Program-made: the position numbers and the translations under genes | Origin: Selenomonadaceae bacterium | GTDB taxonomy: Bacteria > Bacillota > Negativicutes > Selenomonadales > Selenomonadaceae | Assembly (NCBI GenBank): GCA_017634675.1 | Contig: JAGBMX010000033.1 | Span: 1 to 64,000, forward strand | Direction of reading: 5' to 3' | Length of the DNA: 64,000 nt | In this document: positions 7,113 to 63,678 of the stretch, in pieces | Layout of the letters: each line of letters begins with the position of its first letter | How positions within the stretch are numbered: position 1 is the first letter of the stretch | The notes under the pieces: model-generated | The model's database searches: none | What the model saw: only the letters and a program-made list of their open reading frames with translations | What the model was told of the DNA's origin: nothing

Positions 7113-7165
7113 AATAGAATTTTTCATTTTTTAAACATAAATTTAACATTACAAGGGTGTTGTTT

Positions 7166-9397
7166 ATGAAAGAAAAGGTAAGGAAGTTGCTAAATATTGT
7201 GTTGGGGCGCAGTATCAATATTAGGCAACGGCTGTCGCGGTTGGTGGTTATGATAATTTTTGCATCATTTGCTTCGATAGCGCTTCTTTCTTTTTGCGGG
7301 GTTAATTTTTTTCGGCAAAACATGTACGAAATGCAAGACGAATTTGCCACGTCGAATTCGGAATACACTAAAAGCGTGATTGAAAAAACCAGTATGGCAA
7401 CTATGTCAAAACTTGCGATTGCCGACGCTTGGCATATCAACCGCGAACTTGATTTGATGCGCCATGACGCTACGGTTTTGGCGCAATCGCTGACCTTTAT
7501 AATGACTCACCCGGGAAGTTATTTGCCGCAAACGGTGATGGATCCTTATAAGGGCAAGGTTCCGCCTGCGGAGCCTTATATAATATACAGTCCGGATTTG
7601 CGTAAGCGCGGCATTGACAAAGTGTCTCGCGAAGTTGCGCTGACGGCGAACGTTAAGGGAACCTTGGTTTCAATGGAAAAATCTCAAGGGGATCAGTATG
7701 CGGCGTGTTATTTTGGTTCTAAGAACGGTTATTTGATTTGCAGCAGTATTTTTCCAGGGGATGAATACAGCCCAATTTCTGATGATGCGGATTACGATTA
7801 TGACCCAAGAATTCGCCCCTGGTACATAAATGCGGTAGAGGTGGGAAAGCCCGTTTTTTCATTGCCGTATCTCACTATTTTGACTAAAGAGCATACTGAC
7901 GTAGAAGTTATAAGCTGTTCCACTCCTTATTTTGACAGCGATGGTATAGCGGGGGTGGCAAGCATTGATTTGTCTACAGAAGAAATTCGTCGCTTTGTTT
8001 CCGATACTTCTGATAATGCGGGGGAAATCCGTTTCGTTATGACGGAGAGGGGCGATATTGTTTTTTCTTCGGCAGAGTATGGGGTTCTGTCCGAATCCGC
8101 CGAATTGAAGGATATTAGAAAATTGACGGAGGGCGATTTTGCCGAAACAATTTCTCAAATGACAAAGGGCGAATCGGGTATACGACTTGTAGAGCTTAAC
8201 AAAACGCCGTATTATCTCGCTTATGCGCCTATTCCTGCGGTAGATTGGAGTTTCGGCATTTTGACCTTGGAAGAAAATCTTTCTCCTTCCATAAAGGAAA
8301 GTCGCGCGTATTATTTAGGGTTGATGGATAAGTTTCACAAAGAATTTCAAAATACTTACGATTCCATGCAGCATATTTCGATTGTAATAGCTCTGCTTCT
8401 TATAAGCTTGTTTGCGTTTTTTTCAGATAAACTTTCGGTTCGATTTGCCCGTCCGATTTTAGAATTGAGAGAAGGCGTAAGGGAGATTGCGAAAGGAAAA
8501 TTCGATCATAGAATGAACATAAAAACGGGGGACGAGATAGAGGAATTAGCCGATACCGTCAACGCCATGAGTTTGGATTTAAAGAGTTATATGAATAACC
8601 TCTCTAGGGTAACGGCGGAAAAGGAGCGAATTTCAACGGAGCTTAGTCTTGCCGCTAATATTCAAGAAGGCATGATACCTCATATTTTCCCGCCATTTCC
8701 CGATTGCAAAAAAATGGATATATACGCAAGCATGGAAGCGGCTAAGGAAGTAGGCGGCGATTTTTACGATTTTTACATGGTTGACGATCATCGCCTTGCC
8801 ATTACAATTGCGGACGTTTCCGGTAAAGGGATAGGCGCATCCCTCTTTATGGTTATTTCCAAAACCGTTTTGAAAAATTTTGTGATGGCGTCTAATTATA
8901 CCGATCTTGGAGAATTGATTTCCCGCGTAAACGATCAACTTGAAGAGAATAACACCGCTTGTATGTTTGTAACCGTTTTTATCGGCGTACTGGATTTAAA
9001 TACCGGCAAATTTGAATATGTAAACGGCGGTCATAACCCTCCGATGATATACAGAAAGAATGAAAATAAATTTAGTTATTTGGATACGCCGCGCAATTTT
9101 GTTTTAGGCGGTACGCCGGGATTAAAATTTAAAAGTCGGGAATTAGTGCTCTCGCCAAACGACGCATTGTTTTTTTATACGGACGGCGTAACTGAAGCGT
9201 TAAACGAAAAAGTCGAGATGTTCGGCGAAGAACGCCTGATAGAAGCCTTGAATAAATTTGCGGAATTGACGAGTAAGCCTAAAGAATTTTTGGCTAAAAT
9301 TCGCTCTACGCTTGCAGAATATGTAGGAAGCGCAGAGCAATCCGACGATATAACCATGATGTCGGTGGTGTATAAGGGTGATGTCCTTGAGGAGTAG
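7166..9397 (+). CDS. Membrane sensor serine phosphatase: dCache-HAMP-SpoIIE/PP2C
   Basis: The 743-residue sensor protein has a first membrane helix at about residues 24-46. An extracytoplasmic Cache-type domain follows (YDPRIRPWY motif, then a VASIDLS strand), with a second helix at about 398-415. A HAMP linker (FARPILELREGVREIAKGKF) leads to a SpoIIE-type PP2C phosphatase domain from about 490 (AKEVGGDFYDF, ADVSGKGIGASL, C-terminal SDDITM). It probably dephosphorylates an anti-sigma-factor antagonist, but no such partner is in the window. The ATG at 7166 follows AAGGGTG by six bases; the upstream GTG at 7157 is part of that ribosome site. Confidence 0.9.
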   Translation: MKEKVRKLLNIVLGRSINIRQRLSRLVVMIIFASFASIALLSFCGVNFFRQNMYEMQDEFATSNSEYTKSVIEKTSMATMSKLAIADAWHINRELDLMRHDATVLAQSLTFIMTHPGSYLPQTVMDPYKGKVPPAEPYIIYSPDLRKRGIDKVSREVALTANVKGTLVSMEKSQGDQYAACYFGSKNGYLICSSIFPGDEYSPISDDADYDYDPRIRPWYINAVEVGKPVFSLPYLTILTKEHTDVEVISCSTPYFDSDGIAGVASIDLSTEEIRRFVSDTSDNAGEIRFVMTERGDIVFSSAEYGVLSESAELKDIRKLTEGDFAETISQMTKGESGIRLVELNKTPYYLAYAPIPAVDWSFGILTLEENLSPSIKESRAYYLGLMDKFHKEFQNTYDSMQHISIVIALLLISLFAFFSDKLSVRFARPILELREGVREIAKGKFDHRMNIKTGDEIEELADTVNAMSLDLKSYMNNLSRVTAEKERISTELSLAANIQEGMIPHIFPPFPDCKKMDIYASMEAAKEVGGDFYDFYMVDDHRLAITIADVSGKGIGASLFMVISKTVLKNFVMASNYTDLGELISRVNDQLEENNTACMFVTVFIGVLDLNTGKFEYVNGGHNPPMIYRKNENKFSYLDTPRNFVLGGTPGLKFKSRELVLSPNDALFFYTDGVTEALNEKVEMFGEERLIEALNKFAELTSKPKEFLAKIRSTLAEYVGSAEQSDDITMMSVVYKGDVLEE

Positions 9398-9412
9398 GGA
9401 AGGAGGACGTTG

Positions 9413-10054
9413 ATGCGTAATCTGTTAAATATACTTATGTTTGCGATATTTCTTTTAACGATAAGTTTTCATCATTTGCCTAAAATGCTCCATGAAGTTT
9501 TGGGAATTTTGTTGCTCATTGCTGTTCTGGTTCATTTATATTTAAATCGCAAATGGTTTTTATCTATAAAAAAAGGACGCAGGACGACGAGCAGGAATAT
9601 TTCCGATTTTGTTGATTTTACGCTTTTGGTATTGATGTTAATTGTTATCGTAACCGGCGTTTTTATGTCTAATTATCTGTTTAAAGGAATGTTTGGCATC
9701 GAGTTGGCAAGAAATATAACCGTGCATCAGCTTCATGTGTCACTTTCGTATTTGATGTTGATATTGTTGGGAATACATTTGGGGCTACATTGGGAAGGAC
9801 TGTGGCTGCGATTTTTAAATTGGCGACAATTGGATAAAAATTCTAAAAGCGTTCGTATTTTATCCCGTGTTGCCCCCATAATTTTGTTGATTATAGGCAT
9901 ATACGGCTCATTTTTAAATCGTATTGGGGATCGTTTGCTTATGAAGCATATTTTCGCTACGGAGGCAACAAATCTTCCTTTGGCGGTATTTTTGCCGCTT
10001 ACTATAGGAGTAGTAGGAATGTATGCTGTATTTGGTTATAAATTGCGAAAATAA
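9413..10054 (+). CDS. DUF4405-type haem membrane protein
   Basis: The 213-residue integral membrane protein has about six helices. Paired histidines in the helices (VLVHLYLNRKW, ITVHQLHVSLS, LGIHLGLHWEG) fit a cytochrome b561/DUF4405-like four-helix haem core. DUF4405 proteins are linked to membrane electron transfer and flavinylation systems in anaerobes; the exact role here is unknown. AAGGAGG lies six bases before the ATG. It starts 15 bases after the phosphatase gene, so the two are probably cotranscribed. Confidence 0.65.
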   Translation: MRNLLNILMFAIFLLTISFHHLPKMLHEVLGILLLIAVLVHLYLNRKWFLSIKKGRRTTSRNISDFVDFTLLVLMLIVIVTGVFMSNYLFKGMFGIELARNITVHQLHVSLSYLMLILLGIHLGLHWEGLWLRFLNWRQLDKNSKSVRILSRVAPIILLIIGIYGSFLNRIGDRLLMKHIFATEATNLPLAVFLPLTIGVVGMYAVFGYKLRK

Positions 10055-10124: not shown

Positions 10125-10299
10125 TTTACTATTCACGGGTAATACAACATAGTGGTGCGAAAGGTGAATTAGTGCCGTTCATGGTCGACCTCTCCACCGC
10201 TTCGCGGTCCCCATCCCCTGAAAGGGGAGGTGCCCGAAGGGCAGAGGGGTTGACCATGAAGAGCAATATTTTTCTTTTTTTACTACCCGTGAATAGTAA
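10125..10299 (+). mobile_element. MITE copy A (short form, about 175 bp)
   Basis: The terminal inverted repeat TTACTATTCACGGGTA (10126-10141) matches TACCCGTGAATAGTAA (10284-10299) exactly. The flanks carry an 8-bp A/T direct repeat (AAATTTTT at 10117-10124 and 10300-10307; one base of slippage is possible), consistent with a target duplication. The interior lacks any gene and contains GC-rich small hairpins. Apart from one 72-bp block it is nearly identical to the copy at 50105-50351. Confidence 0.88.
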
Positions 10300-10410: not shown

Positions 10411-10953
10411 ATGAAGAAATTCGTTTGCACCGTTTGTGGATATGTCCATGAGGGTGATTCTGCCCCTGAGGCTTGCCCCATCTGCAAAGCTCCCGCTTCG
10501 AAATTTGTCGAGCAGGCAGGCGATTTGGTATTTGCTGACGAACATCGCATAGGAGTTGCGAAAGATGTTGATTCTCGCATTATCGACGGACTTAAGATGA
10601 ACTTTACCGGCGAATGTTGCGAAGTTGGCATGTACCTTGCCATGAGTCGTCAAGCGGATCGCGAAGGATATCCCGAAATTGCGGAAGCTTTCAAGCGTTA
10701 CGCTTTTGAGGAAGCGGAACATGCGGCAAAGTTTGCGGAACTTTTAGGCGATGTCTTGACGGACAGCACTAAGAAAAATCTTGAAATGAGAATTGACGCA
10801 GAGCATGGCGCCTGCGCCGGGAAAAAAGAACTTGCGGTTCTTGCGAAACAGCTTAATCTTGACGCTGTACACGATACCGTACACGAAATGGCAAAAGATG
10901 AGGCTCGTCACGGTTGCGGTTTCAAAGGTCTTTACGATCGTTTCTTTAAATAA
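10411..10953 (+). CDS. Reverse rubrerythrin (N-terminal rubredoxin domain)
   Basis: A diiron peroxidase of anaerobes that reduces H2O2 and O2. The rubredoxin-like Fe(SCys)4 site is N-terminal (CTVCGY near residues 6-11, CPICKAP near 25-31). The ferritin-like diiron domain with its Glu/His ligands follows ([26 protein letters not shown]). This inverted domain order is known from clostridial 'reverse rubrerythrins'. It has 180 residues and an AGGAGG ribosome site. It has its own promoter and a hairpin downstream. Confidence 0.93.
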
Positions 10954-10961
10954 TGCGATAA

Positions 10962-10993
10962 AAAACGGGGCTGTGAAACCACAGTCCCGTTTA
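10962..10993 (+). terminator. Probable terminator after rubrerythrin
   Basis: A strong stem AAACGGGGCTGTG/CACAGTCCCGTTT with an AAAC loop starts a few bases after the stop codon. The trailing T-run is only three bases, so termination may be partial and the next gene may be read through. Confidence 0.6.
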
Positions 10994-11011
10994 AAGTGTT
11001 GAGGCTACATA

Positions 11012-12280
11012 ATGAATAAACTTTCGACCAAACAAATTATAGCGGTGGATTTTGCCCTTGCCGCAATAATCTCGATTTACTGGCTAACAACTGGAATTAC
11101 CGCAGAACATGGACTTTTTATATTTTTTGCCATACTTATAGCCGGTTCTCCGTTTTCATATATGCTCGCTCGAACTTTACCTTATTGGCGAGCGGCAAAT
11201 GTTATTGAGGGCGAAGATATTTCCGTGCAATCGGCAAAAATCATGCGGGAATTGTCCTATCTTGACACATTGTTGTTCGCAAAGAACGGCACTTTAACCG
11301 TCGGAAATCCTTATATATCGGATATTGTCCCCGAAGGCATCACTAAATCTTCCTTACTCGCTCTTGCGGCTTCCATTGAAAAAGACGCAAAACATATAGT
11401 GGGACGCGCTCTTTATAACGCCGCGATTTCCAGAGGACTTAGGTTGCAACACTCGTCTGCAACCAACGAAATCGACGGTAAGGGTATGGAGGGAATGGTA
11501 GGAGGCACTGCGATTCGCGTAGGTAAAATGAATTGGCTGAAAGAAGAAGGCGTTGAAATTAGCGCAGAACTTTTGACTAAACACGATCAGCTTGCTTTTC
11601 ACGGAAAAAATCCTATTTTTGTCGCCAATGGCAAACGAGCCAGAGGTATTATTGCCCTTCTTGACGAAATACCGCCGGGATTTATGACCGCAATCCGTCG
11701 CATAAAAAAACTTGGTATAAATACAACTGTAATTACAACGGATAGCCAACGCACGGCAAATGCCGTTAAAAAAGAACTTTCGCTAGATGAAGCTAAAGGC
11801 GGGTTATCAAGGGAAGAAAAGCTTAGGGAAATAAAGCTCTTAAAAGTAGCCGGAAAAACCGTCGGCATGATAGGCGATTTATATCGTGATCAAAGCATAT
11901 TGGAAACTGCCGATATCGGCATCGAACTTATACCTAAAAAAGTTGAACCTTTTAATATTCATAAAGTTGAGGTAGCCGGAATTGAAGAAGACAACAAGGA
12001 ATCCACAAAAATCGATTCCCTCTTTCCTCCGTTTATACCGAATTTAATTTTAAAAGGCGGGCTTGCCTCCTTAATTCCCGCAGTAGAAATAGCAAGAAGG
12101 GCAAAGGAAATAACGAGGCAAAATTTAATTCTCTCGTATCTTTCGTGGCTTTTGTTGCTGCCATACGCCATGGGTTTTTTTGTTGCCTTTGGCGGGGACT
12201 TTCTAAACGTAGATTCTGCTGCTGTCGGAGTAGGCGTAACCATGCTGTTAATATTTTTTAATTCGCTCAGAGTACATTGA
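11012..12280 (+). CDS. Catalytically degenerate P-type ATPase-like protein
   Basis: The 422 residues align by eye with the second half of P1B metal ATPases: two membrane helices (about 9-30 and 33-55), a P/N-domain core and two C-terminal helices. The key residues are lost. The CPC motif is SPF (46-48), the DKTGT phosphorylation site is AKNGT (Asp to Ala at 90), TGD is TTD, and GDGxND is GDLYRD (289-294). The N-terminal helices and the actuator domain are absent. The frame is open throughout and GAGG precedes the ATG, so it looks like a maintained pseudoenzyme rather than recent decay. Its function is unknown; metal binding or regulation of another pump is speculation. Confidence 0.75.
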   Translation: MNKLSTKQIIAVDFALAAIISIYWLTTGITAEHGLFIFFAILIAGSPFSYMLARTLPYWRAANVIEGEDISVQSAKIMRELSYLDTLLFAKNGTLTVGNPYISDIVPEGITKSSLLALAASIEKDAKHIVGRALYNAAISRGLRLQHSSATNEIDGKGMEGMVGGTAIRVGKMNWLKEEGVEISAELLTKHDQLAFHGKNPIFVANGKRARGIIALLDEIPPGFMTAIRRIKKLGINTTVITTDSQRTANAVKKELSLDEAKGGLSREEKLREIKLLKVAGKTVGMIGDLYRDQSILETADIGIELIPKKVEPFNIHKVEVAGIEEDNKESTKIDSLFPPFIPNLILKGGLASLIPAVEIARRAKEITRQNLILSYLSWLLLLPYAMGFFVAFGGDFLNVDSAAVGVGVTMLLIFFNSLRVH

Positions 12281-12305
12281 CATAAGTTGTTTTATATGAT
12301 AGTAT
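12277..12305 (+). promoter_or_regulatory. Promoter of ssrA
   Basis: A perfect TTGACA (12277-12282) overlaps the stop codon of the preceding gene. At 17 bases' spacing lies TAGTAT (12300-12305), predicting a start just before the mature tmRNA end. TATAAA at 12303 is an alternative -10 with longer spacing. Confidence 0.6.
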
Positions 12306-12317
12306 AAAATTGTCCTT

Positions 12318-12665
12318 GGGGATGTAATGGTTTCGACGGGGATAGATGGGTTTTGATAAGCGAGCCGGGGAGCATGAACCCGTTAAAAATATGCAACTCT
12401 TTTATTAAATATAAAAGCAGATTACGATTACGCTGTGGCGGCTTAAGCCACCCTCTTTTAAGTCTTCTCCCGCGAGATTTAAAAAGAGGCCGACAGCGGG
12501 ATACCCGAACGCTTTGTTTTTAGGTCTAAGGGGAAATTTTTAAAAACTCGGAGAAGTTGTCCTGTTTGTGGGGTAGGTTTTCTTAAAAATAAACGCAAAC
12601 TGCGCTCGGAGAAATTTGAAGCACAATATTTTCGGACAGGAGTTCGATTCTCCTCATCTCCACCA
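12318..12665 (+). ncRNA. ssrA: Transfer-messenger RNA (tmRNA)
   Basis: tmRNA rescues stalled ribosomes and tags the unfinished protein. The 5' end GGGGATGTAATGG... pairs with CATCTCC before the encoded ACCA 3' end, forming the tRNA-like acceptor. A T-arm GGAGTTCGATTCTCC is visible. The likely tag frame starts at GCA 12417 and reads A-DYDYAVAA then TAA (12444-12446), close to clostridial tags such as ADDNFAIAA. An earlier GCA in the same frame would give a longer tag but fits less well. Confidence 0.96.
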
Positions 12666-50104: not shown

Positions 50105-50351
50105 GTTACTATTCATGGGTAGTACAACATAGTGGTGCGAAAGGTGAATTAGTGCCGTTCATGGTCGACCTCTCCACCGCTTCGCGGTCCCCCTCCCCTT
50201 TCAGGGGAGGCAACGTGAAGGTGACTTTTCTATTATATATCCGTAAAATGAGAAATCAGAGAGCCTCCCCTGAAAGGGGAGGTGCCCGAAGGGCAGAGGG
50301 GTTGACCATGAAGAGCAATATTTTTCTTTTTTTCTACCCGTGAATAGTAAC
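50105..50351 (+). mobile_element. MITE copy B (long form, 247 bp)
   Basis: The terminal inverted repeats GTTACTATTCA and TGAATAGTAAC sit inside an exact 8-bp direct repeat ACTTTTTG (50097-50104 and 50352-50359), a target duplication. There is no gene. The interior holds inverted CTCCCCTTTC/GAAAGGGGAG blocks. It is the same element as at 10125-10299 but contains 72 more bases, lying between two CTCCCCT repeats (50193-50199 and 50265-50271). The flanking spacers (49981-50104 and 50360-50452) show nothing else. Confidence 0.92.
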
Positions 50352-61601: not shown

Positions 61602-61638
61602 AGTAAAAAATTAAAGCAATTTTAGATTGGAGATACTT

Positions 61639-63678
61639 ATGAATAAAAAGCAACGCACAATGCTTATCAGGATTATTTTGACAACTATTCTTCTGATAAG
61701 CGTATCATTATTAAATTTTACCGGATTGACGCGCATAGTTTTTTTTCTTTTACCTTATTTCATAATCGGTTGGGACATACTTTTAAAAGCGGCAAAAGGC
61801 GTAAAAAACCGTCGATCTATGGATGAAAATTTGCTTATGGCAGTGGCTACAATCGGCGCCATTGCGCTTGCCGTTAACGACGAATTTCATGGTAAAGAAG
61901 GAGATTTTACCGAAGCGGTAGCCGTTATGCTCTTTTATCAAATTGGAGAATGGTTTCAAAGTTACGCCGTAGGCAAGAGCCGTAAAAATATTTCCGAGCT
62001 TATGGATATAAGACCTGACTACGCCAATATTGAAGTTGACGGTAAAATCACGAAACGTGATCCCGATAATATTGAAGTCGGCTCAACAATCGTTGTATTA
62101 CCGGGAGAAAAAATCCCTATCGACGGCGTTGTGGAATCCGGTACTTCTTCTATAAATACTTCCGCTCTAACCGGAGAGAGTTTGCCGCTGGACATAGAAC
62201 CCGGAAGCGAAGTTTTGTCCGGCGCGGTAAATTTAACGAGTCCGATTTACATTAAAACCACAAAGGCATTTGAAGAATCTACGGCGTCTAAAATTATGGA
62301 AATCGTAGAAAACGCAAGCTCGGCAAAGTCCAAAAGTGAAAATTTTATCACCCGTTTCGCAAAGGTTTATACTCCTGCCGTTGTGTTTTCTGCCGTTGCT
62401 CTTGCAGTAATACCTCCGATATTTGAAATCATGGTTGCGGGTGTGCCCCCAGAATGGAGCGTATGGATTTATCGCGCTCTTATATTCTTGGTTATAAGTT
62501 GCCCCTGCGCTCTTGTTATAAGCGTGCCGCTGTCTTTTTTCTCTGGACTTGGCGGAGCAAGCCGCGCAGGCATATTAATCAAAGGTTCGAATTATATGGA
62601 AACGCTGGCGGATGTTAAGACAATGGTAACGGATAAGACAGGCACGTTAACAAAAGGCGTATTCGATGTAGATGCAATTCACCCCAGTAAGATGCTCTGT
62701 TCCTTTTTACATAAGGCCGGAGGCGAATATATTAAAGCAGGCGATGGACTAGAACATTTAAAACAAGATCTCTTGCACGTTGTAGCCCATGTTGAAAAAT
62801 TCAGTCCTCACCCGATAGCAAATTCCCTTAGAGAAGCCTATCCAAATACAAACGACGAATGTGAAGTGACAGACATCCAAGAATTTACCGGAAAAGGAAT
62901 ATCTGCTATAGTAAACGGTAAAAAAATCCATGTAGGCAATGAAAAACTCATGGAGGAGATTGGCGCAAAATGGCAATCGTGCGACAAAGACGGCGCTATA
63001 ATTCATGTTGCCGTATCAGGCGAATACGCGGGACACATAATTATTGCCGACGTAATAAAGCCGACTTCAAAAGAAGCTGTCTCCATTTTACACGCTAACG
63101 GTATCAAGGTAATTATGTTGACGGGTGATACGGAAAGGGTCGCAGAGAAAGTAGCCGCTGAAATTGGTATAAAAGAATACAAGAGCCGCCTGTTGCCTGC
63201 GGATAAAGTGTATTATCTTGAGCAGGTATTGGCTGAGCAGAATAAAGAGAAGTATATCAGTTTCGAAACCTTAATTAATACGGTAAAAGGCAGAATTGTA
63301 ACAGCGCCACATAAAGTTGCTTTTGTGGGCGACGGGATAAACGATGCGCCGTCTCTTGCTCGAGCTGATGTTGGAATAGCCATGGGCGGCGTTGGGTCGG
63401 ATGCGGCAATTCAGGCTGCGGATGTGGTTTTAATGGACGACGATCCTTTAAAAATTCCTCTTGCTGTCAAAATAGCAAAAAAATGTATAAAAATTGTCAA
63501 ACAGAATGTGTATTTTGCCATAGGTGTTAAATTTTTATGTCTAACATTAGGAGCCGTGGGACTTTTTAACATGTGGTTTGCGATTTTTGCAGATGTAGGC
63601 GTTATGGTGATAGCCGTTTTAAACGCCACGCGTGCATTGATAGTGCCTAAAATTGATAAAAAAATTCCCGCCTGCTAA
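61639..63678 (+). CDS. Heavy-metal P1B-type ATPase (Zn/Cd/Pb group)
   Basis: The 679-residue membrane pump has all catalytic motifs: ALTGESLP in the actuator domain, CPC in SCPCALVISVP (288-290), DKTGTLT with the phosphorylated Asp near 332, an HP pair in SPHPIANSL, TGDT, and GDGINDAPSLARAD near 564. The CPCALVIS form and the C-terminal residues point to Zn2+/Cd2+/Pb2+ export (ZntA/CadA-like). No N-terminal HMA (CxxC) domain is present. An extra stretch of about 20 residues precedes the GDGIND motif. ATG 61639 lies seven bases after GGAG. The divergent feo operon suggests shared metal control. Confidence 0.93.
   Translation: MNKKQRTMLIRIILTTILLISVSLLNFTGLTRIVFFLLPYFIIGWDILLKAAKGVKNRRSMDENLLMAVATIGAIALAVNDEFHGKEGDFTEAVAVMLFYQIGEWFQSYAVGKSRKNISELMDIRPDYANIEVDGKITKRDPDNIEVGSTIVVLPGEKIPIDGVVESGTSSINTSALTGESLPLDIEPGSEVLSGAVNLTSPIYIKTTKAFEESTASKIMEIVENASSAKSKSENFITRFAKVYTPAVVFSAVALAVIPPIFEIMVAGVPPEWSVWIYRALIFLVISCPCALVISVPLSFFSGLGGASRAGILIKGSNYMETLADVKTMVTDKTGTLTKGVFDVDAIHPSKMLCSFLHKAGGEYIKAGDGLEHLKQDLLHVVAHVEKFSPHPIANSLREAYPNTNDECEVTDIQEFTGKGISAIVNGKKIHVGNEKLMEEIGAKWQSCDKDGAIIHVAVSGEYAGHIIIADVIKPTSKEAVSILHANGIKVIMLTGDTERVAEKVAAEIGIKEYKSRLLPADKVYYLEQVLAEQNKEKYISFETLINTVKGRIVTAPHKVAFVGDGINDAPSLARADVGIAMGGVGSDAAIQAADVVLMDDDPLKIPLAVKIAKKCIKIVKQNVYFAIGVKFLCLTLGAVGLFNMWFAIFADVGVMVIAVLNATRALIVPKIDKKIPAC

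Follow-up and report, generated by a model that had tools for sequence, protein, structure and literature searches.

The window analysed here, a stretch of 64,000 nucleotides from a rumen Selenomonadaceae genome, carries at 11012..12280 (+) an ORF with an ATG start whose 422-aa product corresponds to the rear half of a P1B-1 (CopA-type) ATPase and is, with little doubt, a maintained pseudoenzyme derived from CopA. The degeneration of the pump has a single origin in the family, and strong selection persists on the phosphorylation and nucleotide-binding (P/N) domain. From the retained residues and the predicted fold, the protein may bind ATP or ADP without turnover, and for this pseudo-ATPase we infer a regulatory role.

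Gene and domain layout

The ORF was described in an earlier note as the back half of a P1B metal ATPase over 422 open codons, without the actuator domain and front helices and with CPC, DKTGT, TGD and GDGxND replaced by SPF, AKNGT, TTD and GDLYRD. TIGR01525 matches residues 7-306 over profile positions 171-476 (E=1e-47); alignment with intact CopAs agrees that the HMA domain, the actuator domain and M1-M2 are missing, and the PF00122 (actuator) profile finds no match in the window protein. The four substitutions are all read at residues 46-48, 90-94, 242-244 and 288-293, and the layout is as follows.

11012..12280, + strand: pseudo-P1B-1 ATPase gene, 422 aa, with M3-M4, P/N domain and M5-M6
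11027..11209, + strand: front membrane helices, residues 6-26, 31-44 and 48-66, M3-M4 equivalent in the AF2 model
11147..11155, + strand: S46-P47-F48 where CopA has the Cu-binding CPC, central Pro kept
11219..11929, + strand: cytosolic P/N domain (HAD-fold and nucleotide-binding), residues 70-306, the most constrained part
11279..11293, + strand: A90-K-N-G-T (90-94) in place of DKTGT, phosphorylatable Asp missing
11378..11485, + strand: stretch with E123, H128, G156 and G158, ATP-pocket residues that the N-domain retains
11735..11743, + strand: T242-T-D244 in place of TGD
11819..11821, + strand: K270, the P-domain phosphate-binding Lys, retained
11873..11890, + strand: G288-D-L-Y-R-D293 for GDGxND, each Asp still present in the window protein
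11942..12028, + strand: linker, residues 311-339, low-confidence in the AF2 model and fast-evolving by dN/dS
12062..12274, + strand: rear membrane helices, residues 351-387 and 400-421, M5-M6 equivalent, YN and MxSS lost

The HAD superfamily profile PF00702 scores 66.3 bits against a Pfam cut-off of 26.4, which establishes the HAD fold, while the position of the HAD nucleophilic Asp is occupied by A90. Among CopA structures, Legionella CopA 3rfu matches the ORF with the lowest E value (1.8e-30), and residues 346-421 give a second, weak match to the last two helices of these structures. In the AF2 model (pLDDT 82), the P/N domain is surrounded by membrane helices and the linker is probably disordered; the model superposes on CopA 7r0g with a TM of 0.75, and its P/N domain on 3a1c, the P/N domain of Archaeoglobus CopA with AMPPCP, with a TMt of 0.91. 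The structure prediction proposed in the earlier note gives a CopA fold; by alignment, the N-domain pocket residues are kept and the membrane copper ligands are lost.

Residues lost and retained

The title of the earlier note held that every catalytic residue was gone, which is right for the phosphorylated Asp and for all copper ligands and goes too far for K91, D244, D289 and D293, which remain in the window protein. The window protein has SW at the YN position, lacks MxSS and contains no Cys. The N-domain Glu, His and GxG, which line the adenine pocket of P1B N-domains, are present as E123, H128, G156 and G158, with HP reading HI. The three conserved acidic residues left in the protein could allow residual Mg binding.

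Retention was scored in 54 dead members at positions where conservation among 16 intact CopAs is 93% or higher. The phosphorylated Asp is kept in 2% of the dead members, the two Cys of CPC in 20% and 7%, YN in 2% and 13%, and the Met and first Ser of MxSS in 13% and 10%. The N-domain Glu is kept in 94%, the His in 93% and the two GxG glycines in 81% and 100%; the hinge Asp, TGD Thr and phosphate Lys are kept in 81%, 83% and 81%, respectively, and the helix-breaking Pro in 89%. This proline is P47 in the window protein, where it breaks the front helices, and is invariant in 28 aligned sequences. No substitute nucleophile is conserved at the Asp position, where G, S and A occur in 15, 12 and 8 of the 54 dead members. 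Four P/N residues specific to the clade, E160, W175, Q193 and E273, are 87-100% conserved. A longer dead protein of genome G020 (L072) keeps the Asp (DRSGT) with no TGE or GDGxND aligned, a mixed state inside the dead clade.

Distribution and locus history

Matches at E<=1e-40 were found in 156 of the 189 Selenomonadaceae genomes searched and in 26 of their 30 genera, and dead forms are present in most of the genomes read closely. Both sampled genomes of the window genus have orthologues, with 92% and 67% identity, and the homologue search proposed in the earlier note returned over 50 other dead homologues elsewhere in the family, so that the form seen in the window does not reflect chance. 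Members come from the rumen MAGs nearest the window, Selenomonas ruminantium ATCC 12561, S. ruminis, S. noxia, S. infelix, Centipeda and Mitsuokella, as well as Pectinatus, with a full-length dead form; Megamonas records hold an intact form. The hosts of the family are anaerobic bacteria of the gut, rumen and mouth. Genomes of the class outside Selenomonadaceae give only weaker matches, mostly full-length, and the viral contigs searched hold no relative. In several well-sampled genomes (g8, g11 and g22) the gene is missing at the ispE locus and was not found elsewhere at E<=1e-40, and it is therefore dispensable; the G030 copy has an internal stop.

In many genera the gene adjoins ispE (ispE-GntR-glmU-prs, divergent) and lies directly upstream of cydA-cydB-cydD-cydC, with cydA as the next gene on the same strand at 15 dead loci of 8 genera. 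At the same locus, G025 and G048 carry an intact 738-aa CopA upstream of cydA, with HMA, TGES, CPC, DKTGT, GDGIND, YN and MxSS, and in G017 an intact 762-aa CopA adjoins ispE. Other genera have longer dead proteins of about 600-756 aa at the ispE/cyd locus, and most have a half of 377-485 aa. The window genome has cydA on contig C20, ispE on C134 and the pseudo-ATPase gene elsewhere; the gene has moved to new loci while remaining open and constrained. In the window it is flanked as follows.

10411-10953: rubrerythrin gene, upstream flank
12277..12305, + strand: sigma-70-like promoter TTGACA-17-TAGTAT, 10/12 matches, starting in the last codon of the ORF
12318-12665: tmRNA gene, downstream flank

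The position between rubrerythrin and tmRNA, to which the earlier note had drawn attention, is correct, and a meaning drawn from it is not supported: this neighbourhood is incidental, being common to the window genome and G001 and already missing in G002 of the same genus, where a hairpin and no tmRNA follows the gene. Ancestrally, the gene had ispE and cydABDC as its neighbours. The candidate promoter would probably serve the tmRNA gene, in a scan in which promoter-like sites are about as many as in shuffles. A near-perfect hairpin at 10963-10996 lies between the rubrerythrin and pseudo-ATPase genes and suggests that they are transcribed separately. In the genus g7, an NFACT (RqcH-like) gene lies 3' of the dead ATPase gene, either overlapping it by 4 bp or separated from it by 6 bp (L048:6950-8716, L097:8299-10065 and L098:4883-6637); a link to ribosome rescue through tmRNA in the window genus and NFACT/RqcH in g7 was set aside as a probable coincidence. 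In G035, the gene of the dead full-length ATPase is followed after 17 bp by that of a 96-aa HMA-domain protein (L078:6730-7020). We found no conserved partner gene.

Several other features of the window were noted. A second P-type ATPase at 61627-63675 (+), of 683 aa, is catalytically intact (CPC, DKTGT, GDGIND) and groups with non-CopA P1B ATPases of relatives. A SpoIIE-type phosphatase gene with a dCache sensor and HAMP domain (7157-9397, +) is followed by a DUF4405/cytochrome b561-like membrane protein gene (9410-10054). A dispersed intergenic repeat with the core GGTGCCCGAAGGGCAGAGGGG, seen in the window at 10224-10249 and 50276-50301, has 188 copies at <=2 mismatches in the 2.6-Mb genome; the reversed control gave no match.

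Origin and selection

In a tree built from a P/N core alignment of 75 rows and 294 columns, with midpoint rooting for the drawing, the 54 dead sequences form one clade with support of 100/99, and the intact copies of G017/G024, G011/G039 and G025/G048 fall outside it. The nearest neighbours of the dead clade are intact copies of the same clade, with which the locus is also common, and the pseudo-ATPase is thus descended from CopA. Parsimony gives a single intact-to-dead change and two length changes; two origins of the half-length form are favoured by the tree, but the AU test does not reject just one (p-AU 0.074). Catalysis was lost long ago, in one event on the tree. What had been taken for several independent losses is better read as a single loss of catalysis, after which the dead positions drifted freely; an intact HMA-CopA still occupies the ancestral locus in a few relatives.

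Selection was assessed by Nei-Gojobori counting, and pairs with saturated dS were left uninterpreted. Between the window gene and G001, dN is 0.043 and dS 0.91, giving a dN/dS of 0.047, far from the expectation for a pseudogene; by region, dN/dS is 0.027 in the P/N domain and 0.15 in the front helices. Other dead pairs mostly lie at 0.06-0.16, reaching 0.20 in very close pairs, and the rubrerythrin control gives 0.010. Purifying selection on the pseudo-ATPase is strong. Compared with the remainder of the protein, the P/N domain is depleted in nonsynonymous change in six of seven dead pairs (Fisher p between 0.005 and 3e-15; the other pair is too close to tell), whereas two intact pairs show no such depletion (p 0.55 and 0.91); selection was therefore concentrated on the cytosolic domain after pumping was lost. 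Together with the family-wide orthologues and the ancient single loss, these values uphold the earlier proposal of a selected, non-pumping pseudo-P-type ATPase.

Proposed role and alternative explanations

In the preferred reading, an ancestor of Selenomonadaceae encoded a second copper pump between ispE and cydABDC, which lost the phosphorylated Asp, the copper ligands and, in most genera, the HMA domain, the actuator domain and the first membrane helices, while another CopA carried out efflux. Dead-copy genomes examined generally hold another strong intact CopA of about 750-890 aa elsewhere (G002 and G013 being fragmentary), and genomes with an intact copy of the dead gene's clade have no second strong CopA; efflux was therefore probably covered by the other CopA when the locus copy died. 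The remaining N-domain pocket would bind ATP or ADP without hydrolysis, and the membrane-anchored protein, no longer a pump, would respond to nucleotide and serve another protein as a regulator or scaffold. A role as regulator or scaffold is possible, and the proposal as a whole, of an ancient, non-pumping, membrane-anchored, nucleotide-binding pseudoenzyme with such a role, is judged to stand an even chance of being right. A narrower version, in which the protein would be a Selenomonadaceae-wide membrane-tethered ATP/ADP sensor or allosteric partner whose N-to-P closure on nucleotide is the signal, with no transport cycle, is tentative and rather doubtful.

Several other readings were weighed against this proposal. 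A decaying pseudogene of a CopA paralogue would account for the damage to every pump motif, the stepwise truncation, the loss of the gene in some genera and the internal stop in G030, but a dN/dS of 0.047 at a dS of about 0.9, with no stop or frameshift, refutes it for the window lineage, and given strong P/N constraint in many lineages and a single clade across most genera it is hardly credible. The same-strand position immediately before cydA at the 15 dead loci could instead mark a factor for the assembly or regulation of cytochrome bd oxidase, encoded by the first gene of a cluster with cydABDC. The same gene order is found with an intact CopA in G025/G048, however, and the cydA linkage is therefore inherited; the dead gene is kept without a cydA match in G008, G036, G013, G015 and G022 and lost with cydA kept in G009, G037, G012, G040, G057 and G023, the cyd genes are on another contig in the window genome, and constraint is equally strong in the cydA-less genus g7. 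An obligatory role in cytochrome bd is rejected by this co-occurrence, and the broader reading is quite unlikely.

Descent from CopA and the intact CopA generally held by the dead-copy genomes examined would also suit a regulatory or dominant-negative partner paired with CopA in the membrane, for which E160, W175, Q193 and E273 could form an interface. P1B pumps are generally regarded as monomeric, though, genomes that have lost the dead gene still keep the separate CopA, and the two genes are not linked, so this pairing is considered unlikely. For the metal sensor or metal-binding scaffold suggested in the earlier note speak copper-pump descent and the HMA protein gene downstream in the Pectinatus-type genome G035; with no Cys in the window protein, no HMA domain, and CPC, YN and MxSS gone in nearly all members, it is very improbable. 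Set beside these alternatives, the nucleotide-binding pseudoenzyme with a regulatory or scaffold role is the preferred reading.

Relation to known systems and significance

Pseudoenzymes are well known among kinases. The window protein resembles CopA (3rfu, 7r0g, 3a1c) in the fold of M3-M4, P/N and M5-M6, and in the E, H and GxG pocket of the N-domain, and relatives encode an intact CopA orthologous to it at this locus; it differs from CopA in lacking the phosphorylated Asp, CPC/YN/MxSS, HMA, actuator and M1-M2. FixI/CcoI-type P1B ATPases, which are active pumps for copper-containing oxidases, are likewise encoded near a terminal oxidase operon, but here the pump is dead and the oxidase is the bd type, which contains no copper. 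It has been reported that PINA, a splice form of ATP7B, is truncated at its N terminus, so that the metal-binding domains and membrane helices 1-4 are absent, and keeps weak copper transport (PMC3750203). Like PINA, the pseudo-ATPase is a natural N-terminally truncated copper ATPase; unlike PINA, it has a gene of its own and is missing the actuator and the catalytic Asp as well. TMEM94/ERMA has a P-type-ATPase-like architecture without TGES and has been argued not to undergo a phosphorylation cycle (PMC12134183), a non-pump claim disputed by a later paper (PMC13322241); it differs in being eukaryotic, full length, with ten helices and not P1B, and its pumping is disputed. The portions of a 2023 review of P-type ATPases (PMC10654040) reached by keyword search mention no dead prokaryotic family.

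The literature searched, of partial coverage, yielded nothing about this gene or about dead P-type ATPases, nor any account of a conserved one of this kind; its novelty is provisional. Within one bacterial family, and largely at one locus, a path can be followed that begins with the intact pump, passes through dead forms of full length and ends in a dead half, with selection shifting onto the nucleotide-binding domain. What the core of a P-type ATPase can do without pumping is directly testable in cultured species, Selenomonas ruminantium and Mitsuokella among them.
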